Shown here one piece after another: positions 4,989-39,289 of a stretch of DNA of 64,000 nt (positions are counted from its first letter, which is position 1; every line of letters starts with the position of its first letter). The translations under genes were made by a program, and so were the position numbers. The notes under the pieces were generated by a model. The model was not told the DNA's origin. It did not search any database and was given only the letters and a program-made list of their open reading frames with translations. Location: contig NZ_CP048209.1 of NCBI RefSeq assembly GCF_010119935.1, forward strand, positions 3,289,001 through 3,353,000, read 5' to 3'. This DNA is from Paenibacillus lycopersici (lineage in GTDB: Bacteria > Bacillota > Bacilli > Paenibacillales > Paenibacillaceae).

Positions 4989-5206
4989 ATGACAAAATTG
5001 TTGAAACCCCGTATATCGACACCGCGGTTGATTATTCTCGGATTCGCCTTGCTAGTGCTGACAGGGATGATTCTGCTTGCGTTACCGGCTTCGTCCGCCT
5101 CGGGGAGGAGCATGGGACTCGTCGACGCGATGTTTATCTCCACTTCGGCGGTATGCGTGACCGGACTATCGGTTCTCGACGTTCCATCCACCTTTTCCGT
5201 ATTATG
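4989..5206 (+). pseudogene. truncated KtrB-like K+ transporter, 5' fragment
   Basis: Starting 12 bp after the ion transporter, with AGGAAAGG upstream, the frame encodes about 70 residues matching the N-terminus of Ktr/Trk K+ channel subunits: PRLIILGFALLVLTGMILLALP, then the first pore-region stretch FISTSAVCVTGLSVLDV. After STFSV the similarity ends and the frame runs into the ribosome binding site and start of the next gene. A complete KtrB has about 450 residues, so over 80 per cent is missing. If translated it would be fused in frame to the methionine-rich protein below. Confidence 0.75.
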
Positions 5207-16387: not shown

Positions 16388-16417
16388 TTGACAAGCAAAG
16401 GATTCGTTCTATATACT
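16388..16417 (+). promoter_or_regulatory. sigma-A type promoter upstream of the FecCD-type operon
   Basis: TTGACA at 16388-16393 and TATACT at 16412-16417, spaced by 18 bp. The predicted start falls inside the adjacent Zur box at 16427, the standard layout for repression. Confidence 0.7.
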
Positions 16418-16426
16418 ATCTACATT

Positions 16427-16437
16427 GTAATAATTAC
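16427..16437. promoter_or_regulatory. Zur box 1
   Basis: GTAATAATTAC, a perfect copy of the Bacillus Zur operator core, flanked by ATT and GTT. It sits 10 bp downstream of the -10 element. Confidence 0.82.
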
Positions 16438-16438
16438 G

Positions 16439-16468
16439 TTTTAATCCGGGCGGAGGTCCGGATTAAAA
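16439..16468. other. hairpin between two Zur boxes
   Basis: An 11-bp perfect inverted repeat (TTTTAATCCGG and its complement) with an 8-nt loop lies in the leader between Zur boxes 1 and 2. There is no T-run after it on the + strand, so it is not an ordinary terminator. Confidence 0.6.
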
Positions 16469-16482
16469 AATAGACCTAGATC

Positions 16483-16493
16483 GTAATAATTAC
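16483..16493. promoter_or_regulatory. Zur box 2
   Basis: A second perfect GTAATAATTAC, 56 bp after box 1 and 59 bp before the first start codon of the operon. Confidence 0.82.
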
Positions 16494-16541
16494 ATTATAA
16501 AATCATGATTATTTTGGTCAATCACTTAAGGAGGAAAAGTA

Positions 16542-16622
16542 GTGAACATGAACTCGCATGACAGCATCCTGTTGCTCGAACTCGAAGAAGATCAAATTCC
16601 GTATCGAGAGTCGATCCGATGA
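16542..16622 (+). CDS. 26-residue leader ORF, unknown
   Basis: This short frame has the strong ribosome binding site AAGGAGG (16528-16534), with GTG at 16542 or ATG at 16548. The product has an acidic stretch (LLELEEDQIPYRES). Its TGA overlaps the ATG of the permease (ATGA), and the permease has no ribosome binding site of its own, so translation of this ORF probably drives the permease. I do not recognise it; it may be a leader peptide or the scar of a deleted gene. Confidence 0.5.
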   Translation: MNMNSHDSILLLELEEDQIPYRESIR

Positions 16623-17749
16623 AAAAGCTGTTTCGGCCCAGTAATCCCCCCTTGTTCGCTGAACGTAAACAATCCGTGCATAAATTCGCTGCCATTCGCG
16701 ACCATCCATTCTTTTATAGAGCATTTCTATTGTCGTTGGCTATCGGCCTCCTCGTCACCATAACGGTCGCCGTGATGCTCGGACCCGTTCCCATTGCACC
16801 GGGAACGGTGTGGACAATCGCTTACTCTCACCTGCCGGGAGTAAACGGAGGGATGGCGGAGACGTGGAGTCAAGGACAGGGCCACATCGTTTGGGATATT
16901 CGCTTTCCGAGAGTTCTGCTCGGTGTAGCGGTAGGCGGCGGATTAGCCGTTGCAGGCGTGGCCATTCAAGCTCTGATACGCAATTCATTGGCGGATCCGT
17001 ACATACTGGGCGTTTCTTCAGGAGCCTCCGTTGCGGCGACGCTCGTGATTTTGTTTGGCGCTTTTCGCTTTTTTGGACAATATGCATTATCGTTATCTTC
17101 CTTTCTCGGATCGCTTATTGCCATGGTCATGGTTGTTGTGCTGGCACGGGTAGGAGGCAGAATGTCGACCACCAGACTTTTGTTATCGGGTATCGCCGTA
17201 TCCATGATCATGTCGGCAGCTACGAATTTCATCGTGGCCATGGCACCGCGGGAGGAAGGGATACGTTCTGCCATGTACTGGATGATGGGAGGACTCACTG
17301 CGGCAAAGTGGGATTATTTAACCATTCCAGCGTTAGTTGTCGTACTAGGAACCGTTCTATTGCTATTTCAGTACCGTGCCCTAAATGCACTGTTGATGGG
17401 TGAAGAAGCTGCCGTTACATTGGGGGTCGATATTCTTGCTTTTCGCAAATATTTGGTCATTATTGCTGCGCTCTTGACCGGGACAATCGTATCTGTAAGC
17501 GGTTCGATCGGCTTCGTCGGGCTAATGATTCCTCATATCGCAAGGCTATTGGTCGGCTCCGATCATAGACGCGTTCTCCCGGTAAGTCTATTGTTGGGCG
17601 CGATATTTATCGTTTGGTCGGACGTGTTGGCAAGGCTGTTGTTGGCGCCGGAAGAACTTCCGATCGGGATCGTCACCGCGTTATGCGGAGGTCCTTTTTT
17701 CATCTGGTTGTTGCGGCGCAGCGCTTATTCGTTCGGGGGTGCCAAATGA
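16619..17749 (+). CDS. FecCD/BtuC-type ABC permease, Zur-controlled
   Basis: A 376-residue permease of the FecCD family, which imports siderophores, haem or cobalamin. Diagnostic segments are VWDIRFPRVLLGVAVGGGLAVAGVAIQALIRNSLADPYILGVSSGAS near residues 98-145 and GSIGFVGLMIPHIARLLVGSDHRRVLP near 290-315, the loop that meets the ATPase. About nine hydrophobic helices are visible, after an unusually long cytoplasmic N-terminus of about 35 residues. It overlaps the ATPase gene by 4 bp. With two perfect Zur boxes upstream it should be induced by zinc starvation, unlike classic FecCD genes, which answer to iron. Confidence 0.88.
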   Translation: MKKLFRPSNPPLFAERKQSVHKFAAIRDHPFFYRAFLLSLAIGLLVTITVAVMLGPVPIAPGTVWTIAYSHLPGVNGGMAETWSQGQGHIVWDIRFPRVLLGVAVGGGLAVAGVAIQALIRNSLADPYILGVSSGASVAATLVILFGAFRFFGQYALSLSSFLGSLIAMVMVVVLARVGGRMSTTRLLLSGIAVSMIMSAATNFIVAMAPREEGIRSAMYWMMGGLTAAKWDYLTIPALVVVLGTVLLLFQYRALNALLMGEEAAVTLGVDILAFRKYLVIIAALLTGTIVSVSGSIGFVGLMIPHIARLLVGSDHRRVLPVSLLLGAIFIVWSDVLARLLLAPEELPIGIVTALCGGPFFIWLLRRSAYSFGGAK

Positions 17750-18525
17750 ACATAACAGTTAAGGATCTGTCTTACCGCATCCAGGATAAACCATTGATTG
17801 CATCGATTTCTTTGGACATTCAAGAAGGTGAATTGGTCGGTTTGATCGGCCCGAACGGCAGCGGGAAATCGACATTGCTCAAAAATATGTACCGCGTGCT
17901 GGCGCCTGACCAGGGCGAAGTCTTCATGAACGACAAGGATTTATCTCGGATGTCGCACAAGGAATCCGCCAGACACGTTGCGGTGGTAAGCCAGGAGACC
18001 TCAGTCGCTTTCGATTTCACCGTTCAAGAGATTGTCTTCATGGGACGCAGCCCGCATAAAAAGATGTTTGATACGGATACGAGTCAAGACCGCGAAATCG
18101 TTCATCAAGCGTTGTCGCGCGTAGGACTGCTCCATAGAGCGAGAAGCAGCTTCTCTACATTGTCCGGCGGTGAGAAACAACGCGTCCTGATTGCGCGCGC
18201 AGTGGCTCAACAAGCCAGCTGTCTGATATTGGATGAACCGACCAATCATCTCGATATTCGGTATCAGCTGCAAATCATGGATTTGGTGAAGACGCTGAAG
18301 ATCACTTCGCTTGCAGCACTGCATGATTTGAATATAGCCGCTTATTATTGCGATCGTTTGTACGTTTTGAAGGCCGGAAGGATCATCGCGTCCGGTAGCC
18401 CCGAACAAGTGCTGCGACAGGATCTATTGCAGGACGTGTTCGAGGTTGCGACGGAAATCAACAGGCACCCATTAACGGGGAAGCCGTCCATCACTTTCTT
18501 GCCGGAGATGGTTGTCCGATCATGA
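17746..18525 (+). CDS. FecE/BtuD-type ABC ATPase
   Basis: A 259-residue ATPase with Walker A GPNGSGKST (residues ~35-43), signature LSGGEKQRVLIARA, Walker B CLILDEPTNHLD and switch His in ALHDLN. The sequence type is the FecE/FhuC group. ATG 17746 overlaps the permease stop. It energises the importer formed with the permease at 16619 and the binding protein at 19656. Confidence 0.92.
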   Translation: MNITVKDLSYRIQDKPLIASISLDIQEGELVGLIGPNGSGKSTLLKNMYRVLAPDQGEVFMNDKDLSRMSHKESARHVAVVSQETSVAFDFTVQEIVFMGRSPHKKMFDTDTSQDREIVHQALSRVGLLHRARSSFSTLSGGEKQRVLIARAVAQQASCLILDEPTNHLDIRYQLQIMDLVKTLKITSLAALHDLNIAAYYCDRLYVLKAGRIIASGSPEQVLRQDLLQDVFEVATEINRHPLTGKPSITFLPEMVVRS

Positions 18526-18553
18526 AATGTCAATTGCAAAGGAGAGCATTCCG

Positions 18554-19615
18554 TTGACGCTGACAAAATGCGGCTACTGTAATTTTATGTACGACGAATG
18601 GTATGGAGATACGCGAAACGGCGTTCCCGCCGGAACGCCTATTGCCGACTTGGCCGGTACCCTTTGCTCCCGCTGCGGCATTCAGGGAAATCGGCATGAG
18701 CGGCAGCCGGGACCGAGATATGCGGGACAGGAAGCTGAATATTACGACCAATTTGCCGGGAAAGCAGGAATCGGATTCTACAAAAACTGGCTGGAGACAG
18801 CAATGGATTCGACGAACGTGCTGGAACTTGGCGTGGGTACGGGCCGCCTGGCAGTTGAACTCGCGGAGATTGCCGCAAGCTACTGCGGCGTCGATTGGAG
18901 TCCGCGCATGTTGAAAATAGCCGATGCGAAGCGGAGGCGCTTATTCAAAGAAAAAGCGGATGATCGCCTGCAGCTGGTAGAAGCGGATATCTTGTCGTTC
19001 CAAGCGGATCGCCTTTATTCTCGCGTTTTATGCCCGAATGGTATCTTACAGCACTTTACTGACATGGGGGATCAAATCGTATTATTGCGCAACATAGGAA
19101 ATTGGTTAACCGAAGGAGGCCAGCTTGCGGTGGATCTCTTATTGCCGCCTGGCGAACCCAGATGGGAGAGATTGCAGCGCAAGCGCTTGAAGTCCGATAA
19201 ATGGATCGCACAGAGGATTGAAGGGGAAACATCGCTGTCCAGGCAGCTTTTCCGTTGCAGCATCGCGTATGAAACTTACGTCGAGGGGATGATGGAATCC
19301 CGCTATAACATTGAACGCGAATATGCGCTGATGACGCCTAAAGAAATGGTATTGTTGCTCGCGTCGGAAGGATATCAAGTAACGCGGATCATTGAAAATT
19401 ACGGTTTATCTACGCCATGGCAAACGGCGATCCCGACGCAGCCGGGTGATCGGAAACCCGCGGAATCGTTAGAAGATACAATTACGGAAGGAAACAACGC
19501 GGCTTCTTATCGCCATGGGGCATGGATGGATGGGGGCTATCCGTTCGGTGACATGATGCCGGTTCATGCATTCACCCCGGTGACCATGACACTCATTGCG
19601 CAAAAGAAAACTTAG
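18554..19615 (+). CDS. rubredoxin-SAM-dependent methyltransferase fusion
   Basis: This 353-residue protein combines two domains. Residues ~6-42 form a rubredoxin-like knuckle pair: C6-x2-C9 in KCGYCNFMYDEWYGD, a central GVPAGTP, and C38-x2-C41 in LCSRCG, the four Cys that bind one iron (or zinc) in rubredoxin. Residues ~60-353 are a class I methyltransferase with SAM-binding VLELGVGTGRLAVELAE and the post-motif CGVDWSPRML. TTG 18554 is chosen for AAAGGAG nine bases upstream; earlier in-frame starts at 18512 and 18527 lack one. It sits between the ATPase and binding-protein genes of the Zur-box operon. Its substrate is unknown. A role in making or processing the imported metal ligand is speculation. 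Confidence 0.8.
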   Translation: MTLTKCGYCNFMYDEWYGDTRNGVPAGTPIADLAGTLCSRCGIQGNRHERQPGPRYAGQEAEYYDQFAGKAGIGFYKNWLETAMDSTNVLELGVGTGRLAVELAEIAASYCGVDWSPRMLKIADAKRRRLFKEKADDRLQLVEADILSFQADRLYSRVLCPNGILQHFTDMGDQIVLLRNIGNWLTEGGQLAVDLLLPPGEPRWERLQRKRLKSDKWIAQRIEGETSLSRQLFRCSIAYETYVEGMMESRYNIEREYALMTPKEMVLLLASEGYQVTRIIENYGLSTPWQTAIPTQPGDRKPAESLEDTITEGNNAASYRHGAWMDGGYPFGDMMPVHAFTPVTMTLIAQKKT

Positions 19616-19655
19616 TCGTTGCAGTTCGACAACCAATTCGAAAACGGGGAGAAAC

Positions 19656-20672
19656 ATGGCTATGAAAAAGCGTAAGCTCACCATGATGATGATACTGGGA
19701 ACGGCCCTCATTGTACTGTTAGCGGCTTGCGGAGATCATAAGCGGACGTCGTCCGCACGGCAGACGCAAGAACAGCCATTGATAACAAGCCCATCCGAAA
19801 AAGCGGCTGTCGTAATCGAAAATAGGGGCGAGAAGCTCGTTTTCCCGGAGGCGCCAAAACGGGCGATTACCCTGAATCAGCATGCGACTGAAGTGATGCT
19901 GGCACTCGGCTTGGAAGAATCGATGGTGGGAACAGCCTATCTGGATGATCGGATTTTGCCTGAATTTAAAGCGAAATACGACAAGATCCCGATTTTATCG
20001 GAGAAATATCCGTCCAAGGAAGTCTTCTTGGCGGCTTCTCCCGATTTTGCCTATGCCGGCTGGGAGAGCGCCTTCACTGAGAAATCATTGGGACTGAGAT
20101 CGGATCTTGCCAAGCAAGGCGTGCTGACTTACGTGCAAGAATCGTCCAATAAGCCTTCCCCCACGCTGGAAGACGTATTCCAAGACATTCTGAACATCGG
20201 ACGAATTTTCCGTGTCGACGGCAAAGCGAAGCAGGTCGTCAATGACATCCGCAAGAAGCTGGAAGATATTCAGGCTCGAATCGGCACTGTGAGCAAACCG
20301 CTTCAAGTATTCGTCTATGATAGCGGGGATGACAAGGCGTTCACGGCAGCTAATACCTACCTGACCAGCTTGATCAATACAGTCGGCGCGAAAAACATAT
20401 TTGACGATTTGAACAAAGGATGGACAGAAGTCAGTTGGGAAGAGGTGGTCGCACGCAACCCGGACGTGATCGTAGTTGTCGATTACGGCGATACGACTGC
20501 GGCGAAGAAGATCGAGCTGCTTCAGAACAAGGCATCGCTAGTCGATGTCGATGCGATAAAAAACAAGCGCTTTATTGTACTGCCTCTCTCGGCGGCCGCA
20601 GAAGGCATCCGTGCGCCGATCGCGTTGCAAACCCTCGCCGAAGGATTGTATCCGGATCAAATACAACCTTAA
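19656..20672 (+). CDS. FecB/BtuF-type substrate-binding lipoprotein
   Basis: A 338-residue cluster A-II binding protein with lipobox LIVLLAACGDH and the family segments FPEAPKRAITLNQHATEVMLALGLEESMVGTAY, KYPSKEVFLAASPDF and WEEVVARNPDVIVVVDYGD. These proteins deliver siderophores, haem or cobalamin to FecCD permeases. It completes the importer begun at 16619. No zinc-binding His-rich loop is seen, so a chelated rather than free metal is the likely ligand. Confidence 0.88.
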   Translation: MAMKKRKLTMMMILGTALIVLLAACGDHKRTSSARQTQEQPLITSPSEKAAVVIENRGEKLVFPEAPKRAITLNQHATEVMLALGLEESMVGTAYLDDRILPEFKAKYDKIPILSEKYPSKEVFLAASPDFAYAGWESAFTEKSLGLRSDLAKQGVLTYVQESSNKPSPTLEDVFQDILNIGRIFRVDGKAKQVVNDIRKKLEDIQARIGTVSKPLQVFVYDSGDDKAFTAANTYLTSLINTVGAKNIFDDLNKGWTEVSWEEVVARNPDVIVVVDYGDTTAAKKIELLQNKASLVDVDAIKNKRFIVLPLSAAAEGIRAPIALQTLAEGLYPDQIQP

Positions 20673-20735
20673 TTGGCCTTAATTGCTTGTGATCATTAGG
20701 TTGATTCGGCATGCGCCTACAAAAGGAGGATATCG

Positions 20736-21092
20736 ATGACAACATGGAATTTGCAGCAAACCCAATGCCATTTGCTTATTTGCAATGGCGAGAGCTGCAT
20801 GAGACGTTTGGGCGACGAGGTTACGCAAGCCATCCGGGACGAAATCAAAAAACTGGGAGTAGACGCTACGATGCATACGACGCGCACGCGCTGCAATGGG
20901 CGTTGCGCGGATGCATGCGTTGTAATCGCATATCCGGAAGGCATATGGTACAAGGATATTTCGCCTGAAGAAGGCGGAGCATTGGTCCGCAAACATAGCA
21001 AGGGAGAGCGGCTGGAGGAGAAGGCGGTCTACGCATTCGATCGGCAATTCGTGCCTACCGGCCGTTCGGCAATAGGAATAGAGAAAGAATAG
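20736..21092 (+). CDS. thioredoxin-like [2Fe-2S] ferredoxin
   Basis: A 118-residue protein with the Cys pattern of thioredoxin-fold ferredoxins: CNGESCMRRLG near the N-terminus and RCNGRCADACVV in the middle, followed by GIWYKDISPEEGGALVRKH. Relatives occur with cobalamin biosynthesis and metal-chelate genes. It starts at ATG 20736 after AAAGGAGG, 63 bp from the binding-protein gene, in the same operon. It could pass electrons to the neighbouring rubredoxin domain or reduce an imported metal complex; that is inference. Confidence 0.82.
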   Translation: MTTWNLQQTQCHLLICNGESCMRRLGDEVTQAIRDEIKKLGVDATMHTTRTRCNGRCADACVVIAYPEGIWYKDISPEEGGALVRKHSKGERLEEKAVYAFDRQFVPTGRSAIGIEKE

Positions 21093-21107
21093 AAAGGAGC
21101 CGCTTAG

Positions 21108-21367
21108 TTGAAGATGGTTCCCATTATTCTGCTTTCCGGTTTTTTGGGAAGCGGAAAAACAACGCTGCTCACGAGATTATTGGACGATGCCTTGGAGAAG
21201 GGACTGCGCCCTGCGATCGCATGATGTTCCAATACGCCTATCGGCAACTGGACCTGTTTCGCATTCAACCACAGGGGAACGTACTCGATGTTGCCGTATT
21301 CATGGGCGAGCGATTTCCGCGAAACGAGCTGGAGCTAAGATTGGAGCAGCGATTGCAGCAACGATAA
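21108..21367 (+). pseudogene. COG0523 (CobW-type) GTPase remnant with internal deletion
   Basis: TTG 21108 follows AAAGGAG and opens a frame encoding MVPIILLSGFLGSGKTTLLTRLL, the P-loop start of a CobW-type GTPase, which stops at 21222-21224. A second frame, 21224-21367, encodes a CobW C-terminal domain end (LFRIQPQGNVLDVAVFMGERFPRNELE). About 250 codons between them, including the CxCC metal motif, are missing and the frames no longer match. This is an internal deletion scar of the last gene of the importer operon. Confidence 0.78.
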
Positions 21368-21451
21368 TAAGGTTAAAGTTGACCTTCGAATGGCGTGTAG
21401 AATAGCGAATCCGGATAAGGTCTCGGAGCCGGGTCTTCCCGGTCTTGAATC

Positions 21452-21462
21452 GTAATTATTAC
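21452..21462. promoter_or_regulatory. Zur box 3
   Basis: GTAATTATTAC, perfect core with the flank AATC, located 56 bp before the methyltransferase start at 21518. Confidence 0.82.
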
Positions 21463-21517
21463 ATAAAGGATCGAAGTGGGGACATTTGCATGGATCTTGA
21501 ACATGGAGGAAGATACG

Positions 21518-22273
21518 ATGAGACAAAAGGTTCATCAATGGTTTGAAGATAGTTTCGGCGAAGATTACTTGCTTGTGTACAAACACCGAGACGGACAAGA
21601 AGCCATAAGCGAGGTCCGTAAAATCATGGAATGGCTGAAGCTCCCTAGCGAGAGCCGCATTCTCGATTTATGCTGCGGTACGGGCAGGCATGCGCTTGTG
21701 CTGGCCGACTTAGGCTTCCGCGTCACGGGCGTCGACCTTTCATCCGTGCTCTTGCGAGAAGCGAGAGCAACCGATTCCGGAGGCCGCGTCCAATGGATTA
21801 GAAGCGATATGCGAGACCTGCCGTTCGCGGAGTACGAGCTGGAAGGATTCGACGGGGTCGTTAATTTCTTCACTTCTTTCGGTTATTTCGAGGAAGATAA
21901 CGAGCAGTTGAAAGTGCTGAAGCAAATTCGGCGGGCGCTGAAACCAGAGGGACGCTTCGTGATTGACTATTTAAACGCGATAAATACCGCGGATAATCTG
22001 GTCCCGTATTCGGAACGAACGGAGCGGGGAACCGTCATTTCGGAGACGCGTTCGATCGATCGTGATTTTGTCATGAAAGAAATCATTGTCAAGGAACCGA
22101 ATAGACCGTCACGCCGCTATATGGAACGCGTTAAACTCTATTCGCTGGAAAGGATGATCAGTCTGCTTGAAAATGCGGGTCTCGTTCTGGATGCGGTGTA
22201 TGGGAGCTACGACGGGGACAGCTACGAGAAACGCCATTCAAAACGAATGATTATCGTAGGGCATCGGATCTGA
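21518..22273 (+). CDS. class I SAM-dependent methyltransferase under a Zur box
   Basis: A 251-residue methyltransferase with SAM-binding ILDLCCGTGRHALVLADLGFRVTGVDLS and the later motif FDGVVNFFTSFGYF. ATG 21518 follows GGAGG eight bases upstream. It stands as a single gene between Zur box 3 and a terminator. Its substrate cannot be read from the sequence. Its sequence differs from the methyltransferase at 18554 and it lacks the rubredoxin domain. Confidence 0.82.
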   Translation: MRQKVHQWFEDSFGEDYLLVYKHRDGQEAISEVRKIMEWLKLPSESRILDLCCGTGRHALVLADLGFRVTGVDLSSVLLREARATDSGGRVQWIRSDMRDLPFAEYELEGFDGVVNFFTSFGYFEEDNEQLKVLKQIRRALKPEGRFVIDYLNAINTADNLVPYSERTERGTVISETRSIDRDFVMKEIIVKEPNRPSRRYMERVKLYSLERMISLLENAGLVLDAVYGSYDGDSYEKRHSKRMIIVGHRI

Positions 22274-23545: not shown

Positions 23546-23566
23546 ATATAAGCTTGATTCTACACC

Positions 23567-23577
23567 GTAAAAATTAC
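23567..23577. promoter_or_regulatory. Zur box 6 (one mismatch)
   Basis: GTAAAAATTAC flanked by C and G, 21 bp after box 5. A further half site (ATAATTACG) follows at about 23581-23589. Confidence 0.65.
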
Positions 23578-23604
23578 GAAATAATTACGAGGAGTACAAC
23601 TTTG

Positions 23605-24053
23605 ATGAGCAAGAATAGCAGCAGCCGGCTTCCGAGAGCGAAAGGCATCGATATGGCAGCCGTATATACGCCAAAAGAATGCGCAAATAAATCAAAACGA
23701 ATTGTCATGCACGCGAGGAATCGTCAAATTATCGGAGAGTTTATTACGATCCTGGAATTGAGAGAACAATTTGATCGATTCGATGTTCAGGTTCCCAATA
23801 AAGCGGTCATGTTCGGACCTCCGGGCACAGGCAAGACGCTTACGGCTTTCTACCTGGCAGAGCGATTAGGTCTTCCGTTAATTGTCGCAAGACTGGATTC
23901 GATCATACACAGCCATCTCGGTGAAACGGCGAGCAATCTTCGAAGGATCTTCGAGTTTGCCAGGCCAAGCGGAAAGCCATTATTAACCGGACGTGTTTAT
24001 CGTTTCATAACATCATGGAAGCTCATGACGAGTATGAGCCGCGTAAAGTTTAA
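23605..24053 (+). pseudogene. AAA+ ATPase remnant with internal deletion
   Basis: ATG 23605, after GAGGAG, opens a frame for a small AAA+ ATPase: NKAVMFGPPGTGKTLTAFYLAERLGLPLIVARLDSIIHSHLGETASNLRRIFEFA, with Walker A and the region before Walker B. Normally a FLDEFDA motif would follow within ten residues; instead the frame changes to unrelated sequence and runs through a Zur box to 24090. Another frame ends with NIMEAHDEYEPRKV and a stop at 24051-24053, just before that Zur box, and looks like the original C-terminus. I read this as an internal deletion with a frameshift in a Zur-controlled gene. Confidence 0.62.
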
Positions 24054-24055
24054 TC

Positions 24056-24066
24056 GTAATAATTAC
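24056..24066. promoter_or_regulatory. Zur box 7
   Basis: Perfect GTAATAATTAC with extended symmetry (TAATC on the left, GTTAAT on the right), 40 bp before the Fur-family gene. Confidence 0.82.
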
Positions 24067-24105
24067 GTTAATTTCAATCAAGCAACTTAGGCAGGTGAAG
24101 TAGCT

Positions 24106-35346: not shown

Positions 35347-36285
35347 TTATTGCGACAGGCCATCATGGATCATATCCAAATCCCATTTCATCATTTTGAT
35401 GTAGCTATCTCCCGCCTGACCAGGCTTACCCGTGGAATCCGTGAATATTTTACCTTTGATGGGGACGCGGGTTTCTTCGGACAGATTTTCCATGCTTCTG
35501 GGATCAACGCTGGTTTCGACAAACAAGGCAGGTACTTTTTTCGTTTTGACGATATCGACGATTCGCTTCATTTGTTCGGGCGTACCTTGATTTTCCGTAT
35601 TGATTTCCCAAATGTATTGGGCTTCCAGCCCGTAAGCAGCGGAAAAATATTTAAAGGCGCCTTCGCTCGTGACTAATATGCGTCGTTCTTTGGGAATATC
35701 GGCAAAACGGTTGACAGCGTCATCGTGTAGCTTCTGCAATTCGTCGATATACGCTTTCGCATTCGCCTCGTAATATTCTTTATTGTCCGGGTCCTTTTCA
35801 ATCAAGACAGCAAGAGCATTTTGAGCGTATTTGATGCCATTTTCTATGTTCAACCAGGCATGGGGATCTTGCTCGGACTCTTTGCCCGCCGTAGTCAAAT
35901 ATTTTGGCTCTACCCCTTTGCTTAACGGATAGACAGCCGCATTCTCGCCTGACTTTCCAATCGTTGCGAGCATTTTGGTGAACCAACCGTTTCCGGTTTC
36001 GAGGTTCAGTCCATTATAGAAAATAATATCCGCGTCGCTTGCATGCTGTACGTCCTCGGGAAGAGGATCGTATTCATGAGGATCGGTGCCTACCGGTACG
36101 ATCGAATACAGGTTGACGCGATCGCCCGCGACGTTGTGGACGATGTCGTACAGAATTGAGTAAGTGGTCAATATCGTCAGCTTCCCGTCTTCATTTTTGG
36201 AATTGGTTTTCGAAGAACAGCCTGTGGCAGCAAGCAGCAGAACGAAGACGACTAATCCTATAAACCATTTGTTTTGACGCTTCAT
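35347..36285 (-). CDS. cluster 9 metal-binding lipoprotein, PsaA/MtsA type
   Basis: A 312-residue metal-binding protein with lipobox LLAATGCSS. The likely ligands are His in [10 protein letters not shown], His in DPHAWLN, Glu in [11 protein letters not shown] and Asp in [11 protein letters not shown], the H-H-E-D set of the Mn/Fe/Zn-binding PsaA/MtsA group. This differs from ZnuA at 30286. GGAGGAA precedes the ATG. It is the last gene of an ATPase-permease-binding protein operon, the order used by streptococcal psa. Mn2+ is the likelier substrate, but Zur boxes lie upstream. Confidence 0.87.
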
Positions 36286-36323
36286 TTGTCATTCCTCCGA
36301 ATAAATAATGGATACCTATAGAG

Positions 36324-37184
36324 TTAAGCGCGAAGCGAAGCTCTTTTTCTCCTTGCCAGCAGTGCTCGCCACACGACCCCTTGCTTGGGCGAGAAGGAAA
36401 ACGCGAGCGCGAATAAACAGACGGATGCGAGCACAATGGCAGCCCCGGAAGCCAGATTGAACTGAAAGCTGAAAAATAAACCGATTACTGCTGAAACGGC
36501 ACCGAAGGTGGCTGACAAAAAAATCATTTTCCAGAGTTTGTTGGTTAACAGATAGGCGGTTGAAGCTGGTGTAATCAGCATCGCGACGACTAAAATAATG
36601 CCGACCGTCTGTAGGGAGGCCACGGTGACCAACGTCAATAGGGTCATCAGGAAGTAATGAATCAGCCGGTTGGGCAATCCGTAGGCGGCGGACATGACCG
36701 GGTCGAACGAGCTGACCAAAAGCTCCTTGTAGAATACGTAAATGGCGGTCAAGATGAAGAAGCCAATGGCAAAGGTGATCCACATATCGGACAAACGCAC
36801 GGCCAGTACATTACCGAACAAAATGTGATACAGATCGGTCGAGCTTCTGGCGAACGTGATCAGTATGATGCCGGCCGCAAAAAAGGCGGTAAAGATAATC
36901 CCGATTGCTGAATCATTTTTGATTCGGCTGTTTTGGCTGACGTATCCGATCCCCATTGCGGTGAGCACCCCTGTGACTACCGCACCGAAGAAGAAGTTGA
37001 CACCGATCATGTAGGACAGAGCGACCCCTGGCAGCACGGCGTGCGAAATCGCGTCCCCCATGAGCGCCATACCGCGCAAGACGATGAAGCAGCCGATGAC
37101 ACCGCAGATGATGCCAACCATGACCGATGTGACCAGCGCCTTTTGCAAAAAGGCATAATCCATTAAACCATACACGAATTTCAT
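36324..37184 (-). CDS. cluster 9 metal ABC permease
   Basis: A 286-residue ABC-3 permease with eight or so helices; family segments are GCFIVLRGMALMGDAISHAVLPGVALSY and VGIILVVAMLITPASTAYLLT. It overlaps the ATPase gene by 4 bp and has a basic C-terminal tail. It is the middle gene of the operon 37933-35347. Confidence 0.9.
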   Translation of the reverse strand: MKFVYGLMDYAFLQKALVTSVMVGIICGVIGCFIVLRGMALMGDAISHAVLPGVALSYMIGVNFFFGAVVTGVLTAMGIGYVSQNSRIKNDSAIGIIFTAFFAAGIILITFARSSTDLYHILFGNVLAVRLSDMWITFAIGFFILTAIYVFYKELLVSSFDPVMSAAYGLPNRLIHYFLMTLLTLVTVASLQTVGIILVVAMLITPASTAYLLTNKLWKMIFLSATFGAVSAVIGLFFSFQFNLASGAAIVLASVCLFALAFSFSPKQGVVWRALLARRKRASLRA

Positions 37185-37933
37185 GAGGACACCGCCCCTA
37201 TATTCCAGTCTGAAAATGGAAGCTGTGCGGCGTAAGCTTCTTTCAAGCTGCCGGGTTGGAATACTTTCTCCACCGCCCCCGAATCTACTAGGCGAACGTT
37301 CAACAACAGCAGTTCGTCAAAGTAAGCGTGCGCTTTGCTCAGATCATGATGAACGACCAGCACTGTCTTGTTATGATCTCTCAGTTCCTTCAGTAAAGTA
37401 ATAATGGTTTCTTCGCTTGTCACGTCTATGCCGACGAACGGTTCATCCAGACAAAACAACTGCGCTTCCTGAGCCAGCGCCCGGGCTAGAAACACCCGCT
37501 GCTGCTGCCCGCCAGACAATTCTCCGATTTGACGCTTCCCGAAATCCGCCATACCTACTTTTTCAAGACAGTGACAGGACCATTCTTTGTGCCGCTTCTT
37601 CGGGCGGTGAAACAGTCCCAGCTTTGGATAAGTGCCGAGCAGAACCACATCGGAAACCGTGATCGGGAACGTTAAATCGATTTCGCTTCTTTGCGGCACG
37701 TATGCGATCTGTCGGCGCATGTCTTTGAGCGGTTTTCCGAGTATCGCGATCTCACCTTTGTCACGGGGAATCAACTCAAGCAGAGACTTAAACAAGGTGG
37801 ATTTACCCGCTCCGTTCGGACCGACGATACCGATCATGCGGCCTTGTTCCAACGTAAAGCTAATATCCGCAAGAGCATCCTTCCCATGGTAGGAGACAAA
37901 TAAACGATTGACGGAGACAGCCGGCGGCTTCAT
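37181..37933 (-). CDS. cluster 9 metal ABC ATPase
   Basis: A 250-residue ATPase with Walker A GPNGAGKST, signature ELSGGQQQRVFLARA, Walker B LFCLDEPFVGID and switch His in VVHHDLS. ATG 37933 is set by GAGGTG; a GTG at 37942 is possible. It leads the Psa/Mts-like operon. Confidence 0.9.
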   Translation of the reverse strand: MKPPAVSVNRLFVSYHGKDALADISFTLEQGRMIGIVGPNGAGKSTLFKSLLELIPRDKGEIAILGKPLKDMRRQIAYVPQRSEIDLTFPITVSDVVLLGTYPKLGLFHRPKKRHKEWSCHCLEKVGMADFGKRQIGELSGGQQQRVFLARALAQEAQLFCLDEPFVGIDVTSEETIITLLKELRDHNKTVLVVHHDLSKAHAYFDELLLLNVRLVDSGAVEKVFQPGSLKEAYAAQLPFSDWNIGAVSS

Positions 37934-37990
37934 TACCCGCACCTCACTTTATTAGATTATTGACATAGGGCAGCATCTCTTTTTCCCTTG

Positions 37991-38166: not shown

Positions 38167-38247
38167 AGTTAAACGCAGGGGAAGAGATATCTATTCATCA
38201 GGACGACGTAAGAGGAGGCTTATAATAATCAATTGCTGACTCAAATC

Positions 38248-38258
38248 GTAATAATTAC
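38248..38258. promoter_or_regulatory. Zur box 14
   Basis: Perfect GTAATAATTAC preceded by AAATC. The next feature downstream on + is only a tiny ORF and a terminator. Confidence 0.78.
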
Positions 38259-38269
38259 ATGCATCAGAG

Positions 38270-38326
38270 ATGGCTTTCTTAATGAAGAAGAATCCGAATA
38301 GCATAGCAGCAAACGCAACTTCCTGA
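38270..38326 (+). other. 18-codon ORF between a Zur box and a terminator, possible deletion scar
   Basis: ATG 38270 to TGA 38326 encodes MAFLMKKNPNSIAANATS. There is no clear ribosome binding site and the end overlaps the terminator stem, so it may be what is left of a Zur-controlled gene. It could also be the body of a short RNA. Confidence 0.3.
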
Positions 38327-38350
38327 ATAAGGAGGTTGCTTTTGTTTTTA
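38315..38350 (+). terminator. terminator 57 bp after a Zur box
   Basis: A 10-bp stem (GCAACTTCCT / AGGAGGTTGC, one G-T pair) with loop GAATA, followed by TTTTGTTTTT. Confidence 0.75.
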
Positions 38351-38437
38351 CGGGAATGTTAGCAGGAGGAAAGTTCCGTTAGTTATAGAAGTTAATAATT
38401 GATAACCTAAACTAACGATAGAAAAGGGGCATGAACC

Positions 38438-39289
38438 ATGACCGGAAGGATCAAACCCGCGTTTCAGATCTTCATGGCGGCCGTGATGACGGCCGTGCTG
38501 CTGGTTGGCTGCGACAACTCCGCCAAGGCCAAGTATCTAGGACCGAGTCTTGCCGACTATGCGCTCTACAAGGATTACTCGTTCGGCACCTCGCGCAGCG
38601 TGAACAGCCTGGACGCGCTCTCGAAAGATTTTAACGCTTACGGCATCGCCGGTACGATTGTCATTAACCATGAATGGCAGCGCTATCAACCGATCAATGC
38701 GACGAACCATGTGCTGACCGATAAATCCTTGGATTTGACAGCGGTCGCGAATCTTGGCGGCGTCCAGGACGGCGGCATCAGCAGCGGACAAATCACGACG
38801 AAGGAAACGTTCTACCCCTCGGATGGCAAGACGTATATCTTCCAGCTGCGGGCCAAAATTCCGAACGGCGTCGCTACTTGGCCGGCCTTCTGGATGTATT
38901 CGCCGGGCGGATCGGATTCGACCGATTCCGAGATCGATATTTTCGAATTTTTCAATTCGGAGAAGCAAAACCAATACGACTGGACCGGCTATGACCATGG
39001 CGCCGGAGCGAGCGTCGATACCTACAAAATCACGGACCAAGGCGTATGGCATCCGGGCACCGATTTCTCGGCGGATTACCATACGTACACGCTCATCTGG
39101 AAAGAAGGCCTCATCGAGAAATGGGTGGACGACACGAAGGTGAAAACGACCAAGTTCATCTGGTACGGCCCGCCGCCGCAGGTGATCATCAACTTGGCGA
39201 TCGGCGGCGGCCCGAACGCCGAACCGACCGCGGACACCTTCCCGGCGAAGTTCAGCCTGGATTATTTCCGCGTCTATGTGAAGAAGTAA
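38438..39289 (+). CDS. glycoside hydrolase family 16 lipoprotein (beta-glucanase type)
   Basis: A 283-residue lipoprotein (lipobox VLLVGCDNS) with a GH16 jelly-roll domain. The catalytic ExDxxE motif is SEIDIFEFF, preceded by ATWPAFWMYSPGG. GH16 enzymes cleave beta-1,3/1,4-glucans or galactans by a retaining mechanism; the substrate is not readable. ATG 38438 follows AAAAGGGG. It is convergent with the AraC regulator, 6 bp apart. Confidence 0.88.
   Translation: MTGRIKPAFQIFMAAVMTAVLLVGCDNSAKAKYLGPSLADYALYKDYSFGTSRSVNSLDALSKDFNAYGIAGTIVINHEWQRYQPINATNHVLTDKSLDLTAVANLGGVQDGGISSGQITTKETFYPSDGKTYIFQLRAKIPNGVATWPAFWMYSPGGSDSTDSEIDIFEFFNSEKQNQYDWTGYDHGAGASVDTYKITDQGVWHPGTDFSADYHTYTLIWKEGLIEKWVDDTKVKTTKFIWYGPPPQVIINLAIGGGPNAEPTADTFPAKFSLDYFRVYVKK

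Follow-up and report, generated by a model that had tools for sequence, protein, structure and literature searches.

A Zur-boxed FecBCD-type importer operon with a rubredoxin-methyltransferase in Paenibacillus lycopersici, a candidate importer of a cobalt source for zinc-starved cells

Introduction

In Pseudomonas aeruginosa the Zur-controlled system PA2911-2914 is reported to import pyochelin-cobalt (PMC11481552), and cobalt is described as lowering the zinc demand of this organism (PMC11481552; PMC13083405), while Cupriavidus is reported to substitute cobalt when zinc-starved (PMC11340326). The BtuF-like Co(II) importer CbtJKL of Sinorhizobium meliloti is described as being under the control of an adenosylcobalamin riboswitch (PMC7689651). 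Here we analyse an operon encoding a FecBCD-type importer and a rubredoxin-methyltransferase fusion (RdMT) in a 64,000-nucleotide stretch of Paenibacillus lycopersici DNA, the whole of which is referred to below as the window.

Compared by description, PA2911-PA2914 resembles the window operon in its Zur control, its siderophore/B12-like ABC importer and its proposed role in supplying cobalt to zinc-starved cells, but differs in its Gram-negative host, TonB receptor and self-made ligand, pyochelin, and the word 'methyltransferase' is absent from the main text of that paper (PMC11481552). CbtJKL, likewise compared by description, is similar in its BtuF-like binding protein and shares its cobalamin-riboswitch control with most relatives of the operon, whereas the available text of PMC7689651 mentions neither Zur control nor RdMT. 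A riboswitch of the CbtJKL type is missing in the window although it is present in most relatives. BtuFCD belongs to the same superfamily and shares its riboswitch control with the operon's relatives, yet the window genome possesses a separate riboswitch-controlled btuFCD-like set (G000 2927164), followed by ORFs which by eye read as cobT, cobU and cobS. The Cnt/Zrm opine metallophore systems have Zur control of chelate import in common with the window operon, but employ another importer class and a nicotianamine-like synthase; no such synthase, and no opine dehydrogenase, was found among the operon and zinc-island genes scanned. The preliminary description of this DNA had stated that no described zinc system with such parts was known to it, and our search of the open-access literature showed none with RdMT or with Zur acting on a B12-riboswitch importer; the statement holds less well for function, as the similar Zur-controlled cobalt importer published for P. 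aeruginosa illustrates (PMC11481552).

Results

The gene set originally read from the letters, comprising a permease, an ATPase, RdMT, a FecB-type protein and a ferredoxin, was borne out by domain matches (Table 1), and all genes lie on the plus strand, in agreement with the single direction, overlaps and short gaps described for them. Profile searches also confirmed that no metallophore synthase is encoded among the operon genes scanned. The ferredoxin matched NF041612 with an E value of 4.4e-9 and 36.8 bits (cut-off 150). The start of RdMT was taken as the TTG at 18554, while the longer ORF from 18512 was used for the Pfam matches. The CobW gene had been called broken, and indeed its match to an intact relative in locus L039 (345 aa) is confined to residues 1-37 and 299-343 of the latter, in two frames; L039 is also the one locus among 40 relatives in which a CobW gene stands in line with the operon. 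Downstream of this remnant lies a second methyltransferase gene, MT2; according to the neighbourhood comparison, the operon opens with this gene in L036, L038 and L039, three of the relatives. The third Zur-like box, in front of MT2, was absent from the preliminary description.

Table 1. Coordinates of the operon, its putative control sites and the adjoining MT2 gene in the window
Feature	Position	Strand	Basis
Putative sigma-A promoter, TTGACA-N18-TATACT	16388..16417	+	Spotted by eye in the sequence
Zur-like box 1, TTGTAATAATTACGT	16425..16439	+	2 mismatches in 14 to TCGTAATNATTACGA
Zur-like box 2, TCGTAATAATTACAT	16481..16495	+	2 mismatches in 14 to TCGTAATNATTACGA
fecC-type (FecCD) permease, 376 aa	16619..17749	+	PF01032, E 9.9e-95
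fecD-type ATPase, 259 aa	17746..18525	+	PF00005, E 3e-36
RdMT, rubredoxin domain and class I SAM methyltransferase, 353 aa	18554..19615	+	PF00301, E 7.9e-7; PF13649, E 7e-12
FecB-type lipoprotein-like binding protein, 338 aa	19656..20672	+	PF01497, E 1e-24
Thioredoxin-like [2Fe-2S] ferredoxin, 118 aa	20736..21092	+	PF01257, 23.3 bits, just under the cut-off of 24.8
Broken CobW/COG0523 GTPase gene, end remnants only	21109..21367	+	Comparison with intact L039 protein
Zur-like box 3, TCGTAATTATTACAT	21450..21464	+	2 mismatches
MT2, second class I methyltransferase	21494..22273	+	PF13649, E 1.5e-19

The N-terminal part of RdMT carries the two CxxC pairs of a rubredoxin (PF00301, 29.5 bits against a cut-off of 23), and cysteines C6, C9, C38 and C41 of this domain are invariant in all 28 aligned sequences. 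The RdMT model (pLDDT 78.7) resembles small-molecule methyltransferases, among them CcbJ, CypM, TylM1 and glycine N-methyltransferase; neither this fold comparison nor that of FecB was decisive. In a cobalt pathway the methyltransferase has no clear job.

Zur-like sites were scored against TCGTAATNATTACGA, a Bacillus consensus forming a 7-1-7 inverted repeat with 14 scored positions. Twelve sites with at most 2 mismatches were found in the window as compared to 0.32 expected, a number reached in none of 100 shuffles; eleven of them lie between 16425 and 38260, and the remaining one (15128) is situated within a permease gene. None of 200 upstream regions resampled by a first-order Markov draw contained a site as good as box 1. 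The operon thus has a 7-1-7 inverted-repeat box close to its promoter, as is characteristic of the Zur regulon of Bacilli, and Zur control as originally proposed is supported by sequence evidence, as is the import of a metal-related ligand. The two upstream boxes, which had been called perfect, are real and far above chance, but each departs from the consensus at 2 of 14 positions. When a degenerate pattern was run over the whole genome, the boxes obtained with up to 2 mismatches were near noise (103/94 matches versus 78/79 in the control) and were set aside; allowing that pattern no more than a single mismatch gave 21 distinct sites, 10 of these in the window. The region at 16-39 kb constitutes a zinc island with four intact COG0523 GTPase genes, two ZnuABC-type importers and two Fur-family regulators.

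Relatives were gathered through RdMT at order, class and phylum level and in named genomes; these wider levels were used because relatives from the same genus matched only weakly, mostly in the methyltransferase part. At phylum level, three of the matches (E 4.7e-29 to 2.1e-21) were dropped, since their start at query residues 48, 68 and 71 leaves little or nothing of the rubredoxin domain (19-58). A search of viral contigs with RdMT gave no match. The RdMT-marked operon is a rare importer family of Bacilli. It is led by a cobalamin riboswitch in 25 of 27 riboswitch-class operons, including L082 to L084, where the scan confirmed it; the other two, L043 and L081, for which the scan gave no riboswitch and the contig stops before the operon start, are assigned to the class by kinship. 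Five loci from the genus Brevibacillus are under apparent dual control, with a Zur box downstream of the riboswitch, which is present in 5/5. Nine loci have Zur boxes without a riboswitch at the operon. In two of them, those of P. apiarius and Alkalihalobacillus bogoriensis, a corrin-synthesis (cbi) cluster led by a riboswitch stands immediately upstream, and a Zur box lies between this cluster and the operon. The window itself gave no Rfam match, and thus no cobalamin riboswitch was found there. In L075, L141 and L142 a second promoter-like sequence was seen by eye past the terminator of the riboswitch, and the box follows closely on the -10 element of this sequence.

Between -450 and +150 of the first gene, the best Zur-like site had 0-3 mismatches in 14/14 Zur or dual loci (at most 2 in 13 of them) as compared to 4-7 mismatches in the riboswitch class, a contrast to be read as a gap rather than as an independent test because the classes were defined by the boxes. 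This comparison covered 26 of the 27 riboswitch-class loci, L081 being left out as the importer genes are absent from its contig stretch, and L043 contributing only 192 bases. It had been suggested beforehand that homologous operons under Fur or a cobalamin riboswitch and devoid of Zur boxes would refute the proposal. Such riboswitch-led relatives do form the majority, so that Zur control is not general to this operon type, and yet Zur boxes recur in separate Paenibacillus, Brevibacillus and Alkalihalobacillus branches, in Brevibacillus together with the riboswitch, which argues against their being a chance promoter feature. The tree requires at least four regime changes, leaving a single change unsupported, and places riboswitch-only loci nearest to the Paenibacillus Zur clade; L043 and L081 were labelled riboswitch-class, L086 (short RdMT) was omitted and L139 lies on a long branch.

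Only 2 of the 338 positions of FecB, K199R and A243V, are class-specific in the alignment, meaning invariant in the 8 Zur-only rows and differently conserved in at least 90% of the 26 riboswitch-class rows. With so little difference between regimes, the ligand is probably common to both. The solved structures closest to the FecB model (pLDDT 86.5) are 4n01 and 4mlz, for neither of which we know of a ligand. The FecB profile matched BtuF chains at approximately 1e-9, while the BtuC, BtuD and BtuF equivalog models stayed below their cut-offs (NF003001, 248.5 of 334 bits; NF002981, 140.4 of 281; NF002894, 54.9 of 234).

CbiC was present in 29/29 riboswitch-class or dual genomes as compared to 0/5 Zur-only Paenibacillus genomes searched, a contrast confounded by relatedness, as the five genomes all belong to a single clade and a CbiC match is obtained in 155 of 392 genomes across the order in any case. 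CbiC was sought in seven Zur-boxed species that lack a riboswitch at the operon, all those found other than P. profundus and Paenibacillus sp. 2.1, and two of the seven, P. apiarius and A. bogoriensis, do possess it. A riboswitch was found at 18 of 20 canonical btuF loci scanned (30 were fetched), including 5/5 from the CbiC-less Zur-only genomes, and taken together with the CbiC pattern this suggests a need tied to the making of corrin rather than to its uptake. A strong match (at least 228 bits) to the canonical BtuF of the window genome was obtained in 31/34 genomes. CbiM accompanies the operon in 28 of 29 CbiC-positive genomes as compared to 30 of 46 picked CbiC-positive genomes without it, and is found in 0/5 Zur-only genomes. 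The importer as a replacement for CbiM was tested and failed, CbiM being nearly always present alongside the operon in CbiC-positive genomes.

Discussion

The apparent Zur switch on an importer whose relatives are mostly switched by B12 suggests that a cobalt source is brought in when zinc runs out. Our best explanation, held tentatively and with not quite an even chance of being correct, is that this Fec/Btu-type importer, with its accessory redox and methyl-transfer proteins, serves a cobalt source and came under Zur control on several occasions, allowing cobalt to take the place of zinc; the most likely ligand would be a small, externally scavenged cobalt complex. The co-occurrence with CbiM counts against a simple cobalt-importer reading, which predicts that the operon fills in for CbiM, and the methyltransferase and the scarcity of in-line CobW genes among the relatives likewise speak against the explanation. 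As zinc falls, Zur would leave the boxes and the importer would be made; the cobalt complex would enter via FecB-FecC-FecD, its metal may be set free through reduction of Co(III) to Co(II) by the rubredoxin domain together with the ferredoxin, and the methyltransferase may alter the spent ligand or a carrier. The COG0523 GTPases of the zinc island, of which one apparently was formerly an operon member and is now broken in the window, would pass the metal to zinc enzymes able to use cobalt. Regulation may have proceeded from the riboswitch to riboswitch plus Zur box, as in Brevibacillus, and to Zur boxes alone in the CbiC-less clade of the window. A more elaborate version of this scheme, which we regard as rather improbable, would have a Co(III) complex or corrinoid imported and its cobalt stripped by RdMT as a new type of enzyme coupling rubredoxin reduction to methyl transfer, with COG0523 GTPases loading zinc enzymes and control having moved from the B12 riboswitch to Zur.

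Originally, either a zinc chelate or a corrinoid was proposed as the ligand. With the latter, the operon would encode a second corrinoid importer, for intact cobamides, cobinamide or other incomplete corrinoids, with RdMT handling cobalamin, for instance by reductive methylation or removal of the upper ligand; we judge this unlikely, though by no means negligible. Zur control would in that case spare zinc because B12 lets the fast, B12-dependent MetH stand in for MetE, a slow and abundant zinc enzyme, and the window genome has both a MetH domain match and an ORF that by eye reads as MetE, while in P. campinasensis metE lies behind a Zur-like box close to the operon. The cobalamin riboswitch over most relatives, the cobalamin synthesis genes adjoining the operon in P. 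apiarius and A. bogoriensis and the match of the FecB profile to BtuF chains point in the same direction, but nearly all genomes also have a canonical BtuF, mostly under a riboswitch where scanned, the five searched genomes without corrin synthesis, which would be neediest for import, have no riboswitch at the operon, and MetH itself contains zinc.

Import of a zinc chelate, that is of a scavenged zincophore, is less likely than that of a cobalt source and appears distinctly unlikely to us; it would explain Zur control as for any zinc importer and accords with the Zur-like boxes and with the zinc-island setting described above, but it has to assume a different ligand for the riboswitch-controlled relatives despite the mere two class-specific FecB positions, and leaves riboswitch control and the cbi neighbourhood unexplained. 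Import of deazaflavin F420-0, after the names of the NCBIfam models TIGR03868, TIGR03869 and TIGR03873, which score high against FecB, FecC and FecD (221.3, 297.3 and 273.7 bits; best NCBIfam matches for FecB and FecC, second best for FecD), is highly improbable, since all three scores fall far under the curated cut-offs (392.4, 437.35 and 372.4 bits), the riboswitch and cbi context indicates cobalt or a corrinoid, and the F420-0 assignment is based on actinobacterial gene context.

If the cobalt-source explanation is true, cobalt import against zinc starvation, as reported in Pseudomonas, would extend to Gram-positive soil bacteria, and an importer controlled by a B12 riboswitch could be re-wired to Zur, with dual operons still visible in Brevibacillus. 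RdMT, a protein scattered and yet conserved in Bacilli, thereby gains a testable context.

Results

Organization of the operon and its Zur-like boxes

The gene names given in the preliminary description to the operon (16619-21367), a broken CobW gene included, were borne out, and all four rubredoxin cysteines of its rubredoxin-methyltransferase fusion (RdMT) are invariant in the 28 aligned sequences. The two Zur boxes had been called perfect; each has 2 mismatches of 14 to TCGTAATNATTACGA, which we take to be the Zur box consensus. By sequence statistics the boxes are real rather than chance occurrences, as the window holds 12 Zur-like sites with at most two mismatches against 0.32 expected, a number reached in none of 100 shuffles. 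A promoter-like TTGACA-N18-TATACT was seen by eye ahead of box 1, and the second methyltransferase gene, which a third box precedes, is the operon's opening gene in three loci with RdMT relatives (L036, L038 and L039). CobW is in line with the operon in just one of 40 relative loci (L039). Zinc-type genes at 16 to 39 kb comprise four intact COG0523 genes, two ZnuABC-type importers and two Fur-family genes.

Features of the operon and its surroundings (positions in the window)
Feature	Position	Remark
Inverted repeat TTTTAATCCGG / CCGGATTAAAA	16439-16468	by eye; between the two Zur boxes; no T run after it
Small ORF	16543-16621	by eye; about 26 codons; ribosome-binding-like site; overlaps fecC start
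FecCD permease	16619-17749	
ATPase	17746-18525	
RdMT	18554-19615	
FecB-type binding protein	19656-20672	
Thioredoxin-like [2Fe-2S] ferredoxin	20736-21092	
CobW gene, remnants	21109-21367	
Second methyltransferase	21494-22273	behind third Zur-like box at 21450
Short AAA ATPase ORF	23554-24090	looks truncated; residues 22-137 align to anti-phage ATPase IteA model (E 1.3e-28, far under cut-off)
Second ZnuABC-type system	35347-37942	binding protein nearest Mn/Fe proteins EfaA and SloC, under their cut-offs
Zur-like box and glycosyl hydrolase family 16 gene	38246-39289	box (2 mismatches) ahead of gene; odd zinc-island member

Distribution and control of the importer family

The importer family is rare in Bacilli and mostly under B12 riboswitches. 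At E <=1e-20 RdMT was found in 15/392 genomes of the order, 20/398 of the class and 5/398 of the phylum, where each count includes the window's own genome, one genome (G447) enters both the class and the phylum samples, and three of the five phylum matches have little or none of the rubredoxin part. A class-sample genome (G425) has a short copy, its ORF being just 92 codons (L086 2043-2321), and none of 21 further congeneric genomes gave an RdMT match better than 7e-10. A scan of named genomes yielded 30 loci in Paenibacillus, Brevibacillus, Caldalkalibacillus, Bacillus and Alkalihalobacillus, 23 of which coincide with contigs already in the set; the comparison set is 41 distinct loci, the window counted.

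Zur-like boxes, the sign of the Zur control proposed in the preliminary description, occur at 14 loci of this operon type. The other 27 are of the riboswitch class, at 25 of which a cobalamin riboswitch was detected, the remaining two (L043, L081), whose contigs stop before its position, being placed by kinship. Nine loci have a Zur-like box and no riboswitch at the operon (the window, L035, L036, L038, L039, L119, L120, L121 and L139), and five of the genus Brevibacillus (L073, L074, L075, L142 and L145) have both. By eye, these dual loci run riboswitch, terminator, second promoter, the last being TTGCCA-N17-TATAGT with a Zur-like box just downstream in L075, L142 and L141 (the same contig as L074). 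Within -450 to +150 relative to the first gene, the best Zur-like site has 0-3 mismatches in all 14 Zur or dual loci (at most 2 in 13, 3 in L119) and 4-7 in 26 tested of the 27 riboswitch-class loci, which describes a gap between the classes and not an independent test, because the boxes themselves set the classes. In L139 (Alkalihalobacillus bogoriensis), 23 bases, TAAATCGTAATAATTACGATTTA, fully match the long consensus.

Several further arrangements were observed. Bacillus sp. FJAT-42315 has tandem cobalamin riboswitches upstream of the operon (L137 6239-6949; 120.5 and 47.9 bits, the second weaker), and elsewhere in the window genome (C1 91934-92139) one precedes, by eye, a LysR-type-like regulator gene convergent with a metE-like ORF (L117). 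In P. campinasensis (L039 2460-5011), a Zur-like box, TCGTAATTATTACTA, precedes metE (TIGR01371, above cut-off), which is closely followed by a Fur-family gene and the operon. Class I methyltransferase genes also occur directly after the A. bogoriensis operon (L139 11040-11885) and in L036 (5214-5903, where a Zur-like box at 5159 precedes the gene).

Evolution of control

The RdMT tree of 40 rows requires at least four changes of regime. The Paenibacillus loci with Zur boxes only form one well supported clade, whose closest relatives (L037, L068 and L069) are all riboswitch-only; the Brevibacillus dual loci and L139 are placed elsewhere, the position of L139 being unsure because of its long branch. 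The operons of P. apiarius (L120) and A. bogoriensis each lie directly 3' of a riboswitch-led cobalamin-synthesis cluster, with a Zur box between, and these two loci are more aptly regarded as intermediates. The layout in P. profundus (L119) resembles that of L120, with a corrin-type methylase gene ahead of the box.

Discussion

The ligand is probably common to riboswitch-class and Zur-only operons, since just two of 338 binding-protein positions, K199R and A243V, are class-specific (one residue in all eight Zur-only Paenibacillus rows, a different one conserved in 90% or more of the 26 riboswitch-class rows). Of 34 operon-bearing genomes searched, 29 have CbiC, a corrin-synthesis marker, and it is missing only from the five Zur-only Paenibacillus among them, the window's included; Zur boxes do not strictly go with its absence, because Zur-boxed P. 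apiarius and A. bogoriensis have it. Across the order CbiC matches 155/392 genomes, and among its 15 RdMT genomes 10/10 of the riboswitch class (one, G122, with sequence cut before its riboswitch) and 0/5 Zur-only, a contrast confounded by relatedness. The cobalt importer CbiM occurs in 28/29 CbiC-positive genomes with the operon, as compared to 30/46 picked CbiC-positive genomes without it, and in none of five Zur-only genomes; the operon is thus not a plain replacement for CbiM, which those 28 genomes already have. For the window genome's canonical BtuF, its separate B12 binding protein, 31/34 genomes have a strong match (at least 228 bits), and 18 of the 20 such loci scanned (30 fetched) carry a riboswitch, including 5/5 from the Zur-only genomes. 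With an intact corrinoid as ligand, riboswitch control of the importer operon, too, would be expected to survive where corrin synthesis is lacking. A need for cobalt fits the pattern better, since a B12-linked need lapses without corrin synthesis and a need for a zinc substitute can persist. The presence of CbiM speaks against it, but a cobalt complex, not the free ion, would fit both the CbiC pattern and the presence of CbiM.

Both modes of control have counterparts in published work. As with the Zur-like boxes of the window operon, PA2911-2914 of Pseudomonas aeruginosa, which import pyochelin-cobalt, are Zur-controlled, and cobalt can lower zinc demand there (PMC11481552, extended by PMC13083405); as in most relatives, CbtJKL, a BtuF-like Co(II) importer, is under a cobalamin-type (adenosylcobalamin) riboswitch (PMC7689651). 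Other papers report that in Cupriavidus cobalt substitutes for zinc and cobalamin genes are unregulated under metal starvation (PMC11340326), treat COG0523 genes and zinc (PMC2770081, PMC6103462, PMC5387054), and note a modest rise of iron/B12-type importers on zinc loss, with Zur-Fur crosstalk suggested (PMC5387054). Among the open-access papers that our searches listed, we recognised no account of RdMT or of Zur control on a B12-riboswitch importer.

On zinc loss Zur would leave the promoter, FecB would take up a cobalt complex for import through FecC-FecD, rubredoxin and ferredoxin might reduce Co(III), the methyltransferase may work on the ligand or a carrier, and COG0523 GTPases could hand the metal on. 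The RdMT step is the weakest part of this scheme; the predicted fold of the methyltransferase is closest to small-molecule methyltransferases. The ligand of the operon is probably a cobalt source.
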